Below the pieces are notes generated by a model that made no database searches, was not told the DNA's origin, and saw only the letters and a program-made list of their open reading frames with translations. From contig DMPB01000075.1 in the NCBI GenBank assembly GCA_003456175.1, positions 39,842-47,663 of the forward strand: a DNA stretch of 7,822 nt. Direction: 5' to 3'. Both the position numbers and the translations under genes were made by a program. Shown piece after piece: positions 1 to 7,777 of this stretch; position 1 is the stretch's first letter, and every line of letters starts with the position of its first letter. The DNA comes from Chitinophagaceae bacterium (GTDB lineage Bacteria; Bacteroidota; Bacteroidia; Chitinophagales; Chitinophagaceae).

Positions 1-2458
1 TAACAAAAGTATCCCTACGCCCGCCAGTGTTATTGGGCATGAAGTAGGTGAGTGGCATGTTACGCATGATAAATTAGTGTACTATATGCGTGCATTAGCA
101 GCAGCTGCACCCGATAGAATTAAATACGAAAAACTAGGCACTACTTACGAAGGCCGTGAGCAGTTAGCATTGATTATTACCAGTAGTAACAATCATAAAA
201 ACCTTGAACAAATACGCAAGCAACATGTGCAACTTACCAACGGTACTGCTGCTAAAGTAGATGGTATGCCTGTTGTAGTATGGATGGGTTTTAGCATACA
301 TGGCAACGAGAGTAGTGGCTCTAATGCTTCTATGTTATCGGCGTATTATTTAGCGGCTGCACAAGGAGCTTCGGTAGATAGTTTGTTACAACATACGGTG
401 ATATTGTTAGACCCAAGTTTTAACCCCGATGGGCTAAACCGTTTTGCAAGTTGGGCAAATACTCATAAAAGTATGACGCCTGTTACCGACCCCGCAGCTC
501 GTGAGTTTAATGAAATATGGCCGGGTGGCCGTTTCAACCATTATTGGTTTGATTTGAATAGAGATTGGTTGCCAGCACAACATCGCGAAAGTCAGCATCG
601 CTTACAACTATTTCATGCGTGGAAGCCGAATATTTTAACGGATCATCATGAAATGGGTAGTAATGCTACTTTCTTTTTTCAACCCGGTGTGCCTTCGAGA
701 GTTAACCCCAATACACCGTGGCAAAATCAAGAGCTTACAGGTGCTATTGCACAGTTTCATGCTAAGTTTTTAGATAGCATTGGTAGCATGTATTATACCA
801 AAGAAGGCTTCGATGATTTTTATTATGGCAAAGGTTCTACTTATCCGGATATTAACGGTAGCGTAGGTATTTTGTTTGAGCAAGCAAGTAGCCGCGGCCA
901 TGCACAAGAAACAGATAATGGTGTGCTTACATTTCCTTTCACCATTCGCAATCAGTTTACAACAACCCTTTCTACATTAGCAGCGGCACAGCATTTGCGT
1001 ACTACCTTGTTACAATATCAAAATAATTTTTATGTACAAGCAATGAACGATGCGAAAGCTGCTGCTACTAAAGCTTACATTATTGGCGATGCTAGCGATA
1101 AAGGCAAAACAAAAGCTTTTGTGCAAATGCTATTACGTCATCACATTGAAGTGTATGAAGTGGGTAATTCAGTAAAGCAAGATGGCTTGCAATTCAATGT
1201 GGGTAATGCTTACATTGTACCAACCAACCAATCACAATATCGACTCATTAAAACAATATTCGAAAAAAATACCACGTATAAAGACAGTCTTTTTTACGAT
1301 GTAACTGCATGGACGATGCCTTTAGCTTTCGGTATACCACACGCATCATTGGGTGCGAATTATACCACTTACATGGGTAAGGCAGTCACTCAAATTACAC
1401 CAGCAGAAGGTAAGTACCTTGCGGTAAATAATGCAGTTGCTTACGCATTTGATTGGACGGAATTTGAAGCACCAAAAGTATTGCAGCAGTTGTTACACAA
1501 GGGCTTAAAAGTGAAAGTAGCAACACAACAATTTCAAACCAATACCGCTATTGGAAAAAAGCAATTTAGCTATGGAAGTATTGTAATTCCAGTACAAATT
1601 CAATCGATGCCGCATGCTGCCGTACAAGCATTATTACAACAAGTAGCAACAGAAAGTAATGTAACCATTTATGGTTTATCAACAGGTTTTGCAAGCGATG
1701 GTATAGACTTAGGTAGCCCAAGTTTAGCTACGGTTAAAAAGCCTAGTGTAATGATGTTTGGCGGTAATGGTACATCGCCTACCGATGTTGGCGAAATTTG
1801 GCATTTGTTAGACACACGCTTTCAGCTACCTGTTAGCATTGTTGATGTAGAACGTTTTAATAGTATTAATGCTAGTAGGTACAATGTAATTATTATGCCA
1901 TCGGGTGGTTATAACACGCTTGATAAGGCAGCACAAGAAAAATTAAAAACTTGGGTAAGTGCTGGCGGTACTTTAATTGCTACAGAAGATGCTACGAAGT
2001 GGTTGGCTAACAATGGTTTCACGAAAGTTTTATTTACAAGTGATGAAACCAAACGAGATACCACAGCCAACTTACCTTTCTACTTACGTAGCGATGAAAT
2101 GAGAGCTAAAGAAATGACAGGCTCACTGTTTGAAGCAACACTTGATACTACGCATCCGCTCTGTTATGGATATACTACATCAACCGTAACAGTTTTTAAA
2201 AGTAACACCCTATTTATGGATCAGAATAATAGTCCATACGATAGTCCGGTAATGTACACCAACAACCCTTTGCAAAGTGGTTATGTGTTTAGAGCATATA
2301 AAGATAAAATCAAAAATTCTGCTGTTATAAACATTGATAATGTTGGGCGTGGTAGAATCATATCAATGGTAGACAATTTGAACTTCAGAGCATTTTGGTT
2401 AGGTACGAGTAAGTTATTTATGAATGCTATTTTCTTTGGAGATGTTACGCGTAATTAA
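1..2458 (+). CDS. M14-family zinc carboxypeptidase with C-terminal glutamine-amidotransferase-like domain (5' partial)
   Basis: This is a metallo-carboxypeptidase, probably exported, that should remove C-terminal residues from peptides. The frame is open from base 2, so the gene begins left of the window. The GTG at 77 is an internal Val, because the 25 codons before it (…IPTPASVIGHEVGEWHVTHDKL) match the usual N-terminal part of this family. Counting that Val as residue 1, the zinc ligands are H75 and E78 (HGNES) and a His in DHHE (190-191), and the likely catalytic Glu is E268 (LFEQASSRG). FDLNRDW (158-164) is also typical of the family. Residues about 557-645 (VMMFGGNG…VIIMPSGGY…GGTLIATED) resemble a class I glutamine-amidotransferase-like fold, common as a tail in Bacteroidota M14 proteins; no nucleophilic Cys is visible there, so it is probably non-enzymatic. 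Probably only the signal peptide and a short stretch are missing. The gene converges on the helicase gene. The family call is firm; the substrate is unknown. Confidence 0.93.
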   Translation, partial: NKSIPTPASVIGHEVGEWHVTHDKLVYYMRALAAAAPDRIKYEKLGTTYEGREQLALIITSSNNHKNLEQIRKQHVQLTNGTAAKVDGMPVVVWMGFSIHGNESSGSNASMLSAYYLAAAQGASVDSLLQHTVILLDPSFNPDGLNRFASWANTHKSMTPVTDPAAREFNEIWPGGRFNHYWFDLNRDWLPAQHRESQHRLQLFHAWKPNILTDHHEMGSNATFFFQPGVPSRVNPNTPWQNQELTGAIAQFHAKFLDSIGSMYYTKEGFDDFYYGKGSTYPDINGSVGILFEQASSRGHAQETDNGVLTFPFTIRNQFTTTLSTLAAAQHLRTTLLQYQNNFYVQAMNDAKAAATKAYIIGDASDKGKTKAFVQMLLRHHIEVYEVGNSVKQDGLQFNVGNAYIVPTNQSQYRLIKTIFEKNTTYKDSLFYDVTAWTMPLAFGIPHASLGANYTTYMGKAVTQITPAEGKYLAVNNAVAYAFDWTEFEAPKVLQQLLHKGLKVKVATQQFQTNTAIGKKQFSYGSIVIPVQIQSMPHAAVQALLQQVATESNVTIYGLSTGFASDGIDLGSPSLATVKKPSVMMFGGNGTSPTDVGEIWHLLDTRFQLPVSIVDVERFNSINASRYNVIIMPSGGYNTLDKAAQEKLKTWVSAGGTLIATEDATKWLANNGFTKVLFTSDETKRDTTANLPFYLRSDEMRAKEMTGSLFEATLDTTHPLCYGYTTSTVTVFKSNTLFMDQNNSPYDSPVMYTNNPLQSGYVFRAYKDKIKNSAVINIDNVGRGRIISMVDNLNFRAFWLGTSKLFMNAIFFGDVTRN

Positions 2459-2459
2459 G

Positions 2460-2473
2460 CATTTACCGTAAGG
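2460..2473 (+). repeat. Iterated word CATTTACCGTAAGG, copy A
   Basis: This is an exact copy of a 14-base word found four times in the window. It begins one base after the TAA stop (2456-2458) of the M14 peptidase gene and 20 bases before the GC-rich hairpin. With the stop codon it shares 18 identical bases (TAAGCATTTACCGTAAGG) with copy D at 7764-7781. Its core TTACCGTAA is a near-palindrome around one central base. Its function is unknown. Confidence 0.8.
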
Positions 2474-2493
2474 GTGTAGTATTGGAATTGAAT

Positions 2494-2530
2494 ATTACTA
2501 TGGGGCGGCCGAAGGCCGCCCCATAGTAAT
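2494..2530. terminator. GC-rich perfect hairpin between convergent genes, probable bidirectional terminator
   Basis: A perfect 17-bp inverted repeat (2494-2510 with 2514-2530) closes on a GAA triloop. The inner stem GGGGCGGCC is entirely G+C in an otherwise AT-rich region, and the outer stem is ATTACTAT. It sits between the stops of the convergent M14 (+) and helicase (-) genes, so it can fold in either transcript. Neither side has a good U-tract (TAAAGGC follows on plus, ATTCAATT on minus), so it is not a textbook intrinsic terminator. It could instead protect the 3' end or be a REP-like element. Confidence 0.7.
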
Positions 2531-2543
2531 TAAAGGCAATAGC

Positions 2544-5366
2544 TTACGCAAATAAGAAAGCAATATCGTCGGCAGTTAATTGCTTAATAAAGCCAGCATC
2601 TTCGGTAATAAGTTCGTCGGCTACACGTTGCTTACGTTGTTGCAGTTGCAGTATTTTTTCTTCAATACTGTCTTTACAAATCATACGATAAGCAAAAACA
2701 TTTTGTTGTTGCCCAATGCGATGTGTTCTATCAATAGCTTGTTGTTCTGCGGCGGGGTTCCACCATGGATCTACCAAGTACACATAATCGGCTGCTGTTA
2801 GTGTTAAGCCTACGCCACCTGCTTTTAAACTTATTAAAAATATCTTTTCTTCGTTTGTTTGCTGAAATTGCTGTACCAAATCCAGGCGTGTATGCGCTGC
2901 GGTGCTACCATCTAGATATAAATAAGGTATATCGTATTGTGTAAGCATAGCGGCGATGCGTTGTAACATACCCGTGAATTGCGAGAATACCAATACTTTA
3001 TGCTGTTGACTATGCAGTTGTATTTCTTGTAGTAAGGCTTCCATTTTAGCAGAAGAAAAACTACCATCGGCATATTCAGGTACAAGTTGCGGTGCATTAC
3101 AAATTTGGCGTAGCCTAGTTAATGCTTCTAAAATATACATCGTATTTTTTCCTACGCCATCTGTTTGTATTTGTGTTGTTAACTTTTGCTGATAACGTTT
3201 TTTTACTTCATCGTACACTGCTTGCTGATCGGCATGCATACGGCACCATAATATACTTTCTGTTTTAGCTGGCAAATCGGTAGCTACTTGTTGTTTGGTT
3301 CTTCGCAGTAAGAATGGGTGTAATATTTTCTTTAATTGTTTTGCTTTGTTGGTATCATTGAATTTGTCAATGGGTATACTAAAGTGCTGTGTGAAAAAGG
3401 TATGTGTACCCAATAAGCCCGGTTGTGCCCACTGAAACTGACTGTATAATTCGTCGGTATTATTTTGAATAGGCGTACCACTAATTAATAAGCGATTTCT
3501 ACTTTGTAAAGCATACAAAGCTTTTGTAGCTAATGCATTTTTATTTTTAATACTATGACTTTCGTCGGCAATTACATAACCCCAAGTTTTATGTTGTAGC
3601 GTATCAACATCTGTGCGAACAGTACCATAGGTGGTAAGTATCACATGATGTTCACTATTAGTGCTCACTTGCCAATTTCTATTGCTACCGTGATAAATAC
3701 TGTAACGAATTTCAGGTGCAAATTTTTGTAATTCTGCTTCCCAATTAAACAATAGTGAAGTAGGGCACACCACTAAATGTTGTTCTTGTGGGTAAGCATG
3801 TATTAAGTATTGTAGAAAGCAAATGGTTTGTAATGTTTTACCAAGGCCCATATCATCTGCCAAACAACCGCCTAAATTCCAACTATCTAATAAACACATC
3901 CATCTGAAGCCAGCTTCTTGGTATGGACGTAATGTTGCTTGTATACCTTGCGGTAAATGAATAGGCTGGTGTTGTTGCGCTAAATATTGTTGCCAAGCAA
4001 TCTGATGTAATGATGTGTTGTTATTTGCGAGTAATGGTAGTTGCTCTAGCAAACTGAAATGACCTTGGTGTAACGAGATAACATCTTCTTGAACGTTACC
4101 TAAGAGAAACAACCAACCATATTGTTGTTGCCAGTTATCGGGAAGTACGCCTAGTGTTCCATCTTCAAGTAGCAATAATTGCTCCTTATGTTGAAATGCT
4201 TTTTGTAATGTATTCAGCGCCACTGCCTGTGTTCCAAAATGTACACTAGCAGTTATTTGAATAGTATTATTACTGTTAAGGCGTTCTAATGTAATATTGG
4301 GTGTATGTGGGTTGTATTTAAAGTGTTGAAGCTGTGTAAAGCCACTCACTTCAATACCTTCAGATTGCATTGTTCTATAAAACTTAACGAGCCATTGATT
4401 TTTTTCGGCCTCTTTAAAAGAAAGGTAACAATAGCCTTGGCTTCCTTGTTGTGCAAAACTTTTATGCGTTGCCTTGATTATATTCCACAGTTGTTGTTCC
4501 GTTGGTTTATTACGATGTATAATGTATTGTGTAGTTCCTTCTTGTACTATAAAACTATCAGATGCATTTTCTGGTAGTTCAAATTGCTGATAACTAAATT
4601 GTGGTGTAATCATCAAAAAACTATCGTTCAATTCACTCAGTTTAATGCTTGTTGTGGGTAACACATCAATGTGAATTTTTTCAAAAAGTATATCGGCCTG
4701 TACTTGATAGTGTTGTTGGAGTGGTAACAGGTGATGTTCGATTAAAAATCCTACATCGTTAGCATGTACTTCAAAATAGCCTTTCGGATACCGAAGTAAT
4801 ACATCAATATCTTTTTGTTCTGGAATAAAAAACTCATTTCTACTTTTCAGTAAACCGCCTATAATAGAAAAATCATTAGGAGGAAATATTGTTTCACCCA
4901 CCTGCAAGCCAAGCATCAATCTGTATTTGCCTATCGTTGGTTCAACTACTTCAAAATGTAAGCGAGGCACAATGGTACTAATAGCTGCTGGCTTTACTTC
5001 ACTGGTTGTAATTAGCAGCGGGTCAATAAATTCATAATATAGCGGCATTAAATGCAAGAAGGGTCGCATTTGTTGTAAGCCTTTTAAAATATAGCGTTGC
5101 TTTGCTAACAATAATGCTTGTTCATCGGTAATATGAAGTGTTTGTAAGTGTAGTTGAATACTTTCTTGTGTAAGTTGTTGTAAGTAGTAAAATACACCTT
5201 GCGGTAAATATTTGAAATCTGCTTTTAAGTTACTTTGTTGTAGTGGAATTGATTTTAATGCAAATGTTTTTGCATTCTCTTGAATCAATAATTTTTTGAT
5301 TTGAATATTATTTGGCTTTCTAATATCTAACAATAAGCCAGCGGTGGTTCTAAGTTTTGTTGCCAT
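2544..5366 (-). CDS. SNF2/Rad54-family DEAD-like helicase (ATP-dependent dsDNA translocase)
   Basis: This is a cytoplasmic superfamily 2 ATPase of the Swi2/Snf2 type, expected to translocate on duplex DNA and remodel protein-DNA complexes. All the core motifs are present: LRPYQEAGFRW (479-489), Walker A DMGLGKT (505-511), CPTSLLFNW (534-542), DESH box (601-604), SGTPIQNN (629-636), FSQF (794-797), LKAGGVGLTLTAAD (847-860) and DRTHRIGQ (879-886). The 470 residues before the motor have no motif I recognise, and there is no Cys/His SWIM zinc finger, which many bacterial relatives carry. Glutamine is unusually frequent (about 99 of 940 residues by hand count). The start is ATG at 5364-5366 with no Shine-Dalgarno. 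A weak match to the Bacteroidota -7 box (TAATCTTG, minus strand, 5386-5393) lies 20 bases upstream, without a clear -33 box. The S10 gene lies upstream on the same strand, but an intrinsic terminator separates them, so they are probably not an operon. The biological role is not evident. Confidence 0.93.
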   Translation of the reverse strand: MATKLRTTAGLLLDIRKPNNIQIKKLLIQENAKTFALKSIPLQQSNLKADFKYLPQGVFYYLQQLTQESIQLHLQTLHITDEQALLLAKQRYILKGLQQMRPFLHLMPLYYEFIDPLLITTSEVKPAAISTIVPRLHFEVVEPTIGKYRLMLGLQVGETIFPPNDFSIIGGLLKSRNEFFIPEQKDIDVLLRYPKGYFEVHANDVGFLIEHHLLPLQQHYQVQADILFEKIHIDVLPTTSIKLSELNDSFLMITPQFSYQQFELPENASDSFIVQEGTTQYIIHRNKPTEQQLWNIIKATHKSFAQQGSQGYCYLSFKEAEKNQWLVKFYRTMQSEGIEVSGFTQLQHFKYNPHTPNITLERLNSNNTIQITASVHFGTQAVALNTLQKAFQHKEQLLLLEDGTLGVLPDNWQQQYGWLFLLGNVQEDVISLHQGHFSLLEQLPLLANNNTSLHQIAWQQYLAQQHQPIHLPQGIQATLRPYQEAGFRWMCLLDSWNLGGCLADDMGLGKTLQTICFLQYLIHAYPQEQHLVVCPTSLLFNWEAELQKFAPEIRYSIYHGSNRNWQVSTNSEHHVILTTYGTVRTDVDTLQHKTWGYVIADESHSIKNKNALATKALYALQSRNRLLISGTPIQNNTDELYSQFQWAQPGLLGTHTFFTQHFSIPIDKFNDTNKAKQLKKILHPFLLRRTKQQVATDLPAKTESILWCRMHADQQAVYDEVKKRYQQKLTTQIQTDGVGKNTMYILEALTRLRQICNAPQLVPEYADGSFSSAKMEALLQEIQLHSQQHKVLVFSQFTGMLQRIAAMLTQYDIPYLYLDGSTAAHTRLDLVQQFQQTNEEKIFLISLKAGGVGLTLTAADYVYLVDPWWNPAAEQQAIDRTHRIGQQQNVFAYRMICKDSIEEKILQLQQRKQRVADELITEDAGFIKQLTADDIAFLFA

Positions 5367-5416
5367 ACATTGTTCGCAAAGAGTGCAAGATTACGAAAGC
5401 TTATAGTAGTACCCAT

Positions 5417-5448
5417 AAAAAACAGCGATAGTAATTACTACCGCTGTT
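5417..5448 (-). terminator. Intrinsic terminator of the S10 peptidase gene
   Basis: Read on the minus strand, a near-perfect hairpin (arms 5435-5448 and 5421-5434) starts about 20 bases after the S10 stop. Its last two bases begin a run of six T (5422-5417), which is a classic intrinsic terminator. The single irregular pair (5428/5441) would be A-C in a plus-strand RNA but a tolerated G-U in a minus-strand RNA, which supports use by the minus-strand gene. It separates the S10 transcript from the helicase gene. Confidence 0.85.
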
Positions 5449-5450
5449 AT

Positions 5451-5464
5451 CATTTACCGTAAGG
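5451..5464 (+). repeat. Iterated word CATTTACCGTAAGG, copy B
   Basis: This is an exact copy of the 14-base word. It lies in the 103-base gap between the helicase and S10 genes, six bases past the S10 stop and two bases from the terminator hairpin. In the sense of the S10 transcript it reads CCTTACGGTAAATG, so its orientation to the preceding gene is opposite to copies A and D. It has no matching partner nearby and is not part of the hairpin stem. Confidence 0.8.
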
Positions 5465-5469
5465 TAATA

Positions 5470-6969
5470 TTATTTAGTACTTAAAGCCCAATCAAAGAAA
5501 GTATCAACATCTTTTTTGAATTGTATCATATCTGGAATATTGATGTAATACATGTGTCCGGAATTATAGAAATAGTGTTTCACGTTGCTTTGTAATTCTG
5601 GGCGTAAAAACATGTGTGCTACATCGTACTTAGCTGTGAAATAGGGAGTTGCAAAATCGTAATAACCACTTCCAACATACACTTTTAGTGCAGGGTTTTT
5701 GTGCATAGCATCGCGAAGGCTTTCTGCTACATTTAAAAACTGGTTTTGAACGTTGTTATAGTTCCAAGGGTACACGCTGCCAAAAATATTGTAGGGCTTT
5801 TCTTCTTTAAAATTTAAGTGTTTTTGAAAGTAATCGTTCATAGCACTTGTAAAAGGGCCATCAATATTGGTAAAGGAAGGGTCGTAGCTTACGTTTTCAC
5901 CGGCATCATCTAAATCTCTACCAGTAAAGCGGGCATCTAACCTGCCAATGGTTAAGCCATCAGTTCTGCGTAATTCTTTATAAAATCTATTTTCTTCAAC
6001 ACGCAAATTAGCTTGTAGAATATAAGCTTTGCTTAAGCCTGTGTAATAGCTCATTTTTGCTGCTATTTTTTCTTTTTCTGCAGGTGTAAGCCAATCGCCT
6101 TTTAATAATGCAAGGGCATATTCATTCATCGCAAAGGCTTCGCTTTCTTGTAACGCCTTTTGTAAATTTTGCTGCAATTCAGGGGCTAATTTTTTGTGAT
6201 ACCAAGCGGCGGCAGTATACGATGGTAGGTATAATGCTCTCGGCAAATCGTTGCCTACGTAGTAATCGTTAGTGCCGAAATTAAGTACAGGAGATATTAA
6301 GAAAATACCATTGATATAAATACGATAGCTATCTTGTAAGAATTTTGCTAAGCCCGAAGCTCTAATGGTGCCATAACTTTCGCCTGCTAAAAATTTAGGT
6401 GAACCCCAACGTTCGTATTTACTTAAGAAGCTTCTGATGAAATTTCCAACACTCTGCACATCTTCTACATAACCATGAAATTGCTTGGGGTTTTCGCCAC
6501 TTACTGCTCTACTAAAACCAGTTGCAACAGGGTCTATAAATACCATGTCGCTTTTATTAAGCCAGCTATATTCATTGTCTATAATATCGTATGGCGGTGC
6601 CGTTGCTGTACCATCATTTTCAAGCTTTACACGTTTAGGGCCTAAAGCACCCATGTGTAACCACACCGATGACGAACCTGGCCCACCATTAAAGGCAAAT
6701 GTAACCGGACGTTTTGCAGCATCTTCACCATCTTTTCTGTAGTAAGTGAAAAATACTTTTGCAATCGTTTTGCCAGTATCATTTTTTAAATCTAAGTAAC
6801 CCGTATGCGTAGTATATGCAATTGCTTTGCCAGCTACTGTATTAGTGCCTTTACTCACTGTAGCAGTAATACCAGTAGGTACTATTTCTACCGTTGTTTT
6901 TGCTACATTAGGTTGTGCCCAAACTTGTATGCCGTAGCAACAACTTAAAATAAATAATAATTGTTTCAT
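5470..6969 (-). CDS. Secreted S10-family serine carboxypeptidase
   Basis: This is an alpha/beta-hydrolase serine carboxypeptidase (MEROPS S10), expected to release C-terminal residues from peptides outside the cytoplasm. NGGPGSSS (94-101) forms the oxyanion-hole region, S198 in GESYG is the nucleophile, D438 (GYYDFATPY) is the acid, and H472 (NSGHMYY) completes the triad. IDPVATGFS (145-153) is another S10 hallmark. At 499 residues it has the usual length for bacterial members. The N-terminus MKQLLFILSCCYGIQVWAQ looks like a signal peptide, probably cut near VWA-Q. The paired Cys at 10-11 makes a lipoprotein signal conceivable, but ILSC is a poor lipobox and comes very early. ATG at 6967-6969 is the natural start because it opens the signal sequence; no Shine-Dalgarno is seen. 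It has its own terminator downstream and diverges from the flavin-protein gene. It may work in peptide scavenging alongside the M14 enzyme, which is an inference from shared chemistry. Confidence 0.92.
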   Translation of the reverse strand: MKQLLFILSCCYGIQVWAQPNVAKTTVEIVPTGITATVSKGTNTVAGKAIAYTTHTGYLDLKNDTGKTIAKVFFTYYRKDGEDAAKRPVTFAFNGGPGSSSVWLHMGALGPKRVKLENDGTATAPPYDIIDNEYSWLNKSDMVFIDPVATGFSRAVSGENPKQFHGYVEDVQSVGNFIRSFLSKYERWGSPKFLAGESYGTIRASGLAKFLQDSYRIYINGIFLISPVLNFGTNDYYVGNDLPRALYLPSYTAAAWYHKKLAPELQQNLQKALQESEAFAMNEYALALLKGDWLTPAEKEKIAAKMSYYTGLSKAYILQANLRVEENRFYKELRRTDGLTIGRLDARFTGRDLDDAGENVSYDPSFTNIDGPFTSAMNDYFQKHLNFKEEKPYNIFGSVYPWNYNNVQNQFLNVAESLRDAMHKNPALKVYVGSGYYDFATPYFTAKYDVAHMFLRPELQSNVKHYFYNSGHMYYINIPDMIQFKKDVDTFFDWALSTK

Positions 6970-7099
6970 ATAGTATCTGTATTATGCTTGTAAGATAATT
7001 GATTGTAACATCTGAAATACAGTGTATCAAAATCCTGCGGCGAAGTTTTATGTTCGTTAGGTAATTACAACTATTTATGCACTACAATGTTATCATTAC
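6970..7099. promoter_or_regulatory. Divergent intergenic region with both promoters of the S10 and flavin-protein genes
   Basis: These 130 bases separate two divergent start codons, so they must hold both promoters unless one gene is leaderless or driven from elsewhere. On the plus strand TATTTATG (7072-7079), 21 bases before the ATG at 7100, differs by one base from the Bacteroidota -7 box TAnnTTTG; no convincing -33 TTTG is seen upstream of it. On the minus strand TATCTTAC (6997-6990) is a weaker candidate for the S10 gene. No operator palindrome or riboswitch-like structure was seen, and the iterated 14-base word is absent here. Confidence 0.4.
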
Positions 7100-7717
7100 A
7101 TGGAATTACAACACATAGATAAAGTTACCATTGCTAGTTGGGATCGTTTCTATAGAGCCAATGCTATCAATGCTTTGGTAGGTGTTAAACCTGTTAGTTT
7201 AATTGGCACTATTAGTAACGCTGGTACACCCAATGTAGCAGTTTTCAGTAGTATGGTACACTTAGGCAGTAACCCTGCTTTAATAGGTTATATCAATCGT
7301 CCGCGAGCCGCCGCACCCGATACCTTGGCAAATATTGAAGCAACTGGTGTGTACACCATTAATCATATTCATGCATCGTTTGTAGCGCAGGCACATCAAA
7401 CAAGTGCTAAATATCCATCAGAGGTAGATGAGTTTGAGGCTGTTGGTTTAACGCCCATTTACCGTAAGGGTTGTGTAGCCCCATTTGTGCAAGAGAGTAT
7501 GTTGCAATATCAATTACAGTTAGTTGAAATAGTTCCTATTCAACACAATGGTACTTTTCTGGTGATTGGTAGTGTTGAAAATATTTGGTTACCGCATAAT
7601 GTATTGCAAGCCGATGGATTTATAGACGTTGCGAGTATAGGTACTATAAGTAGTGCGGGTAACGATGCGTACTACACCACGCAATTATTGCAACGTTTTG
7701 CATATGCTAAACCATAA
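7100..7717 (+). CDS. Flavin-reductase-like FMN-binding split-barrel protein
   Basis: This 205-residue cytoplasmic protein belongs to the flavin reductase-like family (DIM6/NTAB type), which binds FMN in a split barrel and typically reduces flavin with NAD(P)H or acts as the reductase of a two-component system. Supporting stretches are KPVSLIGTISNAGTPNVAVFSS (30-51, the family's flavin-binding opening), DTLANIEATGVYTINH (74-89), and the second half EFEAVGLTP…APFVQESMLQYQLQLVEI (111-144) with a barrel strand FLVIGSVENIWL (153-164). Length is normal for the family. The start is ATG at 7100, preceded by AT-rich sequence without a Shine-Dalgarno. It stands alone, with no monooxygenase partner in view, so the substrate cannot be named. 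An exact copy of the iterated 14-base word lies in frame at residues 119-124 (PIYRKG), in a loop region I expect to be variable in the family. Confidence 0.87.
   Translation: MELQHIDKVTIASWDRFYRANAINALVGVKPVSLIGTISNAGTPNVAVFSSMVHLGSNPALIGYINRPRAAAPDTLANIEATGVYTINHIHASFVAQAHQTSAKYPSEVDEFEAVGLTPIYRKGCVAPFVQESMLQYQLQLVEIVPIQHNGTFLVIGSVENIWLPHNVLQADGFIDVASIGTISSAGNDAYYTTQLLQRFAYAKP
7456..7469 (+). repeat. Iterated word CATTTACCGTAAGG, copy C (inside a coding region)
   Basis: This exact 14-base copy lies within the flavin-protein gene and is translated as part of P-I-Y-R-K-G. It is the only exact copy in a coding region and is not near a hairpin, so the word is not purely a 3'-end element. Confidence 0.75.
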
Positions 7718-7718
7718 A

Positions 7719-7745
7719 AAAGAGCAACATTTATTGTTGCTCTTT
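7719..7745. terminator. Probable bidirectional intrinsic terminator after the flavin-protein gene
   Basis: A perfect 11-bp stem (7719-7729 with 7735-7745, core GAGCAACA) has a five-base loop TTTAT and begins two bases after the stop codon. On the minus strand the right arm side ends in six T (7721-7716), the classic form. On the plus strand the tract is only CTTTCACTT, so termination is probably stronger for a minus-strand gene arriving from the right. This fits a convergent partial gene at the edge. Confidence 0.85.
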
Positions 7746-7763
7746 CACTTGCTATTATAGCCA

Positions 7764-7777
7764 CCTTACGGTAAATG
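7764..7777 (-). repeat. Iterated word CATTTACCGTAAGG, copy D
   Basis: This exact copy lies on the minus strand (CCTTACGGTAAATG on plus), 18 bases from the preceding terminator hairpin. Read on the minus strand it follows a TAA stop by one base, giving the same 18 bases as copy A after the M14 gene. Its placement relative to stop and hairpin therefore mirrors copy A. Confidence 0.8.

Follow-up and report, generated by a model that had tools for sequence, protein, structure and literature searches.

A mini-hairpin word iterated through a Chitinophagaceae genome and spaced strand by strand: a possible tag of self-DNA

Background

What can a short word be doing that returns several times within the space of a few genes? 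The question is raised by a stretch of 7,822 nucleotides from a Chitinophagaceae bacterium (GenBank assembly GCA_003456175.1, contig DMPB01000075.1, positions 39,842 to 47,663; hereafter the window), in which a first-pass annotation made from the letters alone had listed four exact copies of one 14-base word, had considered that frequency far beyond chance and had likened the word to DNA uptake sequences or to chromosome-organising words such as Chi, KOPS or matS. The four copies are exact and lie at 2460-2473 (+), 5451-5464 (+), 7456-7469 (+) and 7764-7777 (-), as first reported, and others with at most two mismatches were found at 1417-1430, 3946-3959 and 5197-5210, all on the minus strand. 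The frequency held up as well: with at most three mismatches the window contains seven matches against 0.77 expected, and none of 200 shuffles reached seven. The copies are thus real, but their description as a fixed 14-base word missed a hairpin whose stem changes in a compensating manner, as well as a spacing that goes by strand.

Results

The first-pass annotation had proposed counting the word in the whole genome and in relatives. The assembly (3.12 Mb in 213 contigs, 81% complete) gave 1,022 + 1,016 copies with at most two mismatches, where the reversed word gave 28 + 22; exact copies of ATTTACCGYAAGG numbered 642 + 654 = 1,296, with none for the reversed control, and YATTTACCGYAAGG with one mismatch was found 1,883 times (control, 9). 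Since the word is genome-wide, local duplication was rejected as the origin of the copies in the window. Spacing and context were studied on 556-754 kb of the assembly (6% of the 754 kb being N), and the density of 0.76 per kb in the 754 kb sampled extrapolates to approximately 2,370 copies in the genome.

The word is a hairpin family of 12-16 letters and not a fixed 14-mer, and consists of an ATTT foot (sometimes TTTT), a stem strand, a G[T/C/A]AA loop and the complementary stem strand, the common stems being ACC/GGT and GCC/GGC. In 556 kb, both strands considered, stems of three pairs following TTT and enclosing a GNAA loop were complementary in 306 cases, compared with 15 in direct-repeat controls (ACC 216, GCC 44, ACT 13, plus others). 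The same test yielded 33 complementary stems of four pairs (control, 5) and 133 of two pairs, the latter against a weak control of 70 and including 72 AC and 15 GC stems. When foot and loop were fixed and one pair was left free, the inner pair was Watson-Crick in 265 of 266 copies (CG 246, TA 11, AT 4, GC 4) and the middle pair in 247 of 249; the outer pair was paired in 227 of 303 (chi-square p = 3e-34), while two slid control columns gave p = 0.98 and 0.39. The foot adjoins the stem with zero spacer in 322 copies, spacers of 1-4 bases giving only 9, 4, 1 and 1.

Tolerance to change follows the same anatomy. Against 143 copies of CATTTACCGTAAGGT in 754 kb, single changes at TTT, at stem pairs 2 and 3 or at loop positions 1, 3 and 4 were present in 0-1 copies each, and the tolerated changes fell on the first two bases, loop position 2 and the outer pair. 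Loops of GGAA or GTGA had no copy among the neighbours of the main word, GGAA being found once in another count. When 355 core copies were aligned, nothing beyond about 15 bases was strongly conserved (the best position was a G at -12, with 0.18 bits), so that the word is no copy of a longer element. As single strands, the two common stems have predicted folding energies of -1.7 to -3.4 kcal/mol as DNA and -3.2 to -5.2 kcal/mol as RNA, and the ACT/AGT stem is predicted to be weaker (-0.8 and -1.2 kcal/mol).

The spacing of the words was analysed on 47 contig pieces (754 kb, 539 words, all loci kept). At less than 100 bp, neighbours on opposite strands, that is, inverted pairs, were enriched (64 against 19.3 expected) and neighbours on the same strand were depleted (7 against 19.0); judged by eye, an inverted repeat lies between the two members of several inverted pairs with a distance of 50-70 bp. 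At 100-1000 bp there were 71 same-strand pairs, compared with 168 for uniform positions and with 111.6 +/- 7.6 when only the orientations were shuffled (0 of 2,000 as low), whereas the 152 opposite-strand pairs compare with 169 +/- 12 under uniform placement, a count as low arising in 39 of 500. The coefficient of variation of the same-strand gaps, whose mean is 2,431 bp, was 0.685 against 0.904 +/- 0.035 (0 of 2,000). The depletion persisted in a subset of 474 words without N-rich and island contigs (64 same-strand pairs against 100.5; 0 of 1,000), and a separate simulation with 355 words, which keeps the classes of gene and gap and from which loci under 8 kb and two island loci were dropped, agreed on the strand-wise spacing, neighbours alternating in orientation in 61% of cases against 50%. 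A word on one strand is therefore no stand-in for a word on the other, and this suggests that whatever counts the words sees single strands. Deletion between close direct repeats could also thin same-strand pairs, but we judge it too rare for 14-base repeats that lie hundreds of bases apart.

Over 30 stretches of the 213-contig assembly, the two strands were filled more evenly than chance would have it (chi-square for strand heterogeneity of 13.3 on 30 degrees of freedom), so that no replication polarity is seen; nor is there regional clustering of the word. The comparison with Chi, KOPS or matS found no support here, and on this strand balance together with the strand-wise spacing a replication-oriented word was rejected.

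With respect to genes, taken as long open frames (475 in 556 kb) and not as curated annotation, 367 three-pair copies were distributed as 214 within genes, 9 at gene edges and 144 in intergenic sequence. The latter makes up 8.8% of the bases, and the densities are about 2.9 words per kb between genes and 0.44 within them. Convergent gaps were the densest (36 copies in 7.1 kb). The first-pass annotation had pointed to a divergent promoter gap without the word, which is true of the window but not general, as the divergent gaps in the 556 kb, 10.9 kb in all, contain 24 copies. Copies in codirectional gaps were sense in 39 cases and antisense in 36; this neutrality to transcription argues that the word acts at the level of DNA. 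Genic copies were sense in 75 cases and antisense in 139. A messenger RNA element was rejected on these orientation counts in codirectional gaps and genes.

To 24 of 217 coding words, carried by 150 genes, a relative could be aligned when only matches with at least 45% identity and an E value of 1e-30 or less were kept, and 21 of these 24 showed no gap within the word. Residue identity was 40% in the alignable words (115 residues) and 56% in their flanks (673 residues); judging from these alignments, the words occupy variable sites and most of them seem to have arisen by substitution. Spread by insertion was rejected, given the nearly random flanks and the 21 gap-free copies. Of 129 windows of 5 kb, 7 lacked the word: five were on two contigs, and the other two contain some N. 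On the first contig (C6), a word-free stretch of 15 kb (L034:1-15000) has a low GC content, a phage integrase and a two-component pair; on the second (C28), the word-free parts of L047, two 5-kb windows, carry glycosyltransferases and a capsule-synthesis gene. The word thus appears scarce in foreign DNA, as judged from an integrase-bearing island and from few islands in all.

Outside this genome, the word is nearly absent. The sole other member of the genus searched (G001) had one exact copy of ATTTACCGYAAGG. Exact ATTTACCGYAAGGT occurred 929 times in the own genome and 0-2 times in each of 393 other genomes of the family, and YATTTACCGYAAGG with one mismatch had 0-28 matches per genome in 98 relatives, with controls of similar size in nearly all. 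The highest of these counts (28; control, 5) came from G076, a genome of another family of the same order, which was also the exception for exact ATTTRCCGYAAGGY (27 against 0 in the control), a word with 1,312 copies in the own genome and 0-4 in the rest of 394 other genomes of the phylum. Ten of these 27 copies were inspected (11.2 kb, 52% GC): all read ATTT-GCC-G[C/T]AA-GGC and their flanks were unrelated, and an additional ATTT-GCC-GAAA-GGC lies in the same stretches (L377-L385). A codon effect (LPQG) was rejected, because only three of the ten read LPQG in the longest open frame, the other seven lying in varied frames and orientations. G076 therefore bears the same hairpin as well, if weakly: foot and loop are kept, and the stem is the GC-rich GCC/GGC.

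When 110 stretches, each 6 kb or longer, were scanned for dispersed 11-mers of any sequence, our word, one longer repeat of G433 and one repetitive gene (L364) came up; another scan gave a repeat gene in L074. L074 and L364 were rejected as second bearers, the words being repeated inside a single gene in each. The close relative G433 (L071, L285-L304) carries about 852 copies of TTGCGTCGCACACTT (one mismatch), often as inverted pairs, and several other relatives have the repeat in smaller numbers (75 in G435). It was rejected as the same kind of word because its conservation spans at least about 65 bases; from its sequence, it looks like a family of the REPIN/MITE type, unlike ours. In viral contigs the exact 14-mer was found once per stretch among the matches listed, with no inverted pair, and a plasmid search placed the flavin reductase only. 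Literature searches on uptake sequences of Bacteroidetes, single-strand nucleases, competence in Chitinophagaceae and iterated words returned, among the matches listed, no description of the word, nor of any other hairpin word whose copies are counted on each strand separately.

The members of the family in the window are collected in Table 1. Pfam identified four genes in positions 1-7717, encoding an M14 peptidase, an SNF2 helicase, an S10 serine carboxypeptidase and a flavin reductase-like protein. Among named records, the S10 peptidase is matched best by MAGs that carry the label Sphingobacteriales or Chitinophagaceae and by Terrimonas ferruginea, which would put the host close to Chitinophagaceae. 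At the word in the flavin reductase gene, the protein of a relative (L071) aligns without a gap and with different residues. Between the facing words of the convergent gap stands an inverted repeat (2494-2530) whose 17-bp arms match perfectly around a loop of 3 bases (attactatggggcggcc gaa ggccgccccatagtaat), and the scan called no T run behind it. Against Rfam, the window had no match at the gathering score; two of four sub-threshold matches overlapped words (DapZ, 28.4 of 56 bits; L20_leader, 22 of 58.7).

Table 1. Members of the hairpin family in the window and their surroundings
Element	Positions	Strand	Context
Hairpin word ATTT-ACC-GCAA-GGT	1416..1429	-	Within the M14 peptidase gene, antisense to the gene
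Hairpin word ATTT-ACC-GTAA-GGG	2461..2474	+	2 bases past the M14 peptidase stop codon; outer pair A-G unpaired
2-bp-stem relative ATTT-GC-GTAA-GC	2542..2553	-	3' end of the helicase gene; opposite the 2461 copy across the convergent gap
Hairpin word ATTT-ACC-GCAA-GGT	3945..3958	-	Within the SNF2 helicase gene, sense
Doubtful member GTTT-ACT-GAAA-AGT	4842..4855	-	Weak candidate; foot GTTT
Hairpin word ATTT-ACC-GCAA-GGT	5196..5209	-	Within the SNF2 helicase gene, sense
Hairpin word ATTT-ACC-GTAA-GGT	5452..5465	+	Gap from the stop codon of the S10 peptidase gene to the helicase start
Hairpin word ATTT-ACC-GTAA-GGG	7457..7470	+	Within the flavin reductase gene; outer pair unpaired
Hairpin word ATTT-ACC-GTAA-GGT	7763..7776	-	3' of the flavin reductase gene, past a terminator-like hairpin (scan: - strand)

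Discussion

We favour, tentatively and at a little short of an even chance, the reading that this family of mini-hairpins is read on single-stranded DNA as a tag of self-DNA, probably in natural transformation or in the recombination that follows it; both the tag function and the single-strand reading of the hairpin are what we infer from form and spacing. A putative protein of DNA import or recombination would bind the folded strand by its ATTT foot and GNAA loop, incoming strands that bear the tag would be integrated or protected more often, and tagged alleles would spread by molecular drive until each strand had one tag per about 2.4 kb. If either strand can be imported, each would need its own tag, and a second one on the same strand within about 1 kb would add nothing if one tag per fragment is enough. 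ComEC passes single strands and, since either may enter and one tag per fragment would suffice, transformation or strand exchange would be the natural place for such a tag to be read. It is possible, though we hold this more loosely, that the family amounts to a watermark of folded DNA, in which each strand is tiled separately (about every 2.4 kb) with a foot and a GNAA mini-hairpin and self is told from foreign inside the cell after strand separation, not at the surface. The genome might then conserve a shape rather than one fixed string of letters, a corollary to which we give much the same qualified credence.

There are precedents for parts of this scheme. The spacing of the DNA uptake sequence (DUS) of Neisseria is reported to match the length of conversion tracts, a precedent for a spacing of 1 to 2 kb set by drive, and the combination of a foot and a hairpin can be bound strand-specifically, as by TnpA-REP. 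DNA uptake by H. influenzae is described as independent of the orientation of the word.

Several observations weigh against the tag reading. The word is in force in one genome only. ComEC (C187) and DprA (C194) were found in that genome but also in 8 of 9 and 6 of 7 relatives searched, respectively, and their presence in word-free relatives means that they do not single it out. A search for the T2SSE motor in the 81%-complete assembly gave one match of 56 positions over the cut-off and one below it, neither convincing, although with 19% of the genome missing by the completeness estimate the absence of a protein from the assembly is not proof. By a crude codon model, 47% of the genic copies should be sense, while 35% were, and the model puts the frames wrongly, expecting mostly antisense frame 0 where antisense frame 2 was observed. 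In 76 of 303 copies the outer bases do not pair; the ACT/AGT stem as DNA is matched by many shuffles (42 of 200 fold as well), and the variant with two pairs is not stable alone by either energy set, so that a protein would have to hold these two forms. Finally, covariation by itself does not tell which strand is read.

Chi, the signal of RecBCD and AddAB, is a short linear word with many copies per genome, and a recombination signal of that kind is the alternative that survives best, although we consider it unlikely. A nuclease-helicase that resects a double-strand break, or a loader behind it, would meet a hairpin on one strand and switch to repair, and each direction of resection would need its own copy; this requirement would yield strand-specific spacing, and Chi itself is reported to be read on one strand. 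In contrast to Chi, our word is a hairpin, with a stem that tolerates changes provided that pairing is kept, it lacks polarity, its strands being more balanced than chance, and it is in force in one genome, and weakly in one more, among hundreds.

A more doubtful possibility is an element like the repetitive extragenic palindromes (REPs), the hairpin and its 5' ATTT foot being bound by a relative of the Y1 (HUH) transposases, either as a past spreader or as a present processor. REPs and REPINs with their TnpA-REP (RAYT) are likewise of high copy and carry a 5' tetranucleotide foot beside a hairpin, which TnpA-REP is described as recognising strand-specifically on folded single strands (GTAG foot). 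In the word, too, the foot (ATTT) joins a paired stem with zero spacer, the single-strand reading being our interpretation. Yet REPs are reported to be extragenic and 20-40 bp long, with GTAG or CGTC as the tag of most of them, and our word has neither that placement nor that length: it has 12-16 bases, the strongly conserved part being about 15, and more than half of its copies (214 of 367) are in genes, 21 of the 24 alignable ones without sign of insertion. Moreover, Y1_Tnp had no match in the own 81%-complete assembly.

We regard as equally doubtful an ordinary double-stranded uptake sequence of a type IV pilus, whose stem would pair as a side effect of two-fold symmetry in the binding site. 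The word matches the DUS of Neisseriaceae and the uptake signal sequence (USS) of Pasteurellaceae in copy number and density, in its inverted pairs and in being absent from the island; DUS and USS are reported as short words that have thousands of copies on both strands, about one per 1-1.5 kb, are denser between genes but also present within them, form inverted pairs and are scarce in foreign DNA. To this extent the likeness drawn by the first-pass annotation fits a word that is genome-wide, nearly confined to one genome, dense in intergenic sequence and often inverted; the hairpin and the spacing by strand fall outside a double-stranded model. In DUS and USS, as described, a linear word is recognised in double-stranded form at the surface, with type IV pili, whereas here stems of two, three or four pairs shift the foot relative to the loop, which is hard to reconcile with a fixed double-stranded site, and changes in the stem compensate. 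The exclusion is mainly between words on the same strand, unlike the orientation-blind uptake of H. influenzae. The host belongs to Bacteroidota, and its incomplete assembly has no convincing pilus motor.

An RNA element, in which transcripts would carry a GNRA-tetraloop hairpin as the target of an RNA-binding protein, is very improbable, since, although GUAA, GCAA and GAAA are GNRA loops and the hairpin is predicted to be more stable as RNA than as DNA, orientation is neutral in codirectional gaps, genic copies are mostly antisense (139 of 214), GGAA and GTGA, which are also GNRA loops, are absent among the neighbours of the main word, and Rfam gave no match at the gathering score.

Two other systems invite comparison with the word. 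Neisserial NTS repeats, which go with the Ssn family of single-strand GIY-YIG nucleases, are reportedly read on single-stranded DNA and modulate transformation; here, only a UvrC-sized GIY-YIG frame and the end of a larger protein of fused type were found in the own assembly, and our literature searches returned, among the matches listed, no paper on NTS or Ssn. HIP1 of cyanobacteria is, like ours, a word iterated many times in the genome and limited to some lineages, but it is a single palindrome, GCGATCGC, linked to methyltransferases, whereas our word is asymmetric, with a foot, a loop and a variable stem.

Conclusions

The genome watermarks known from gene exchange are linear, and cells sense them at their surface while the DNA is double-stranded. 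The family offers a target for a search, namely a protein that binds a defined mini-hairpin, and two general statistics that can be applied to any genome, the compensation of stems across genomic copies and the exclusion between words on the same strand. Should the reading prove true, bacteria would also be able to mark their own DNA by a folded single strand, the form that transforming or recombining DNA takes in the cytoplasm.

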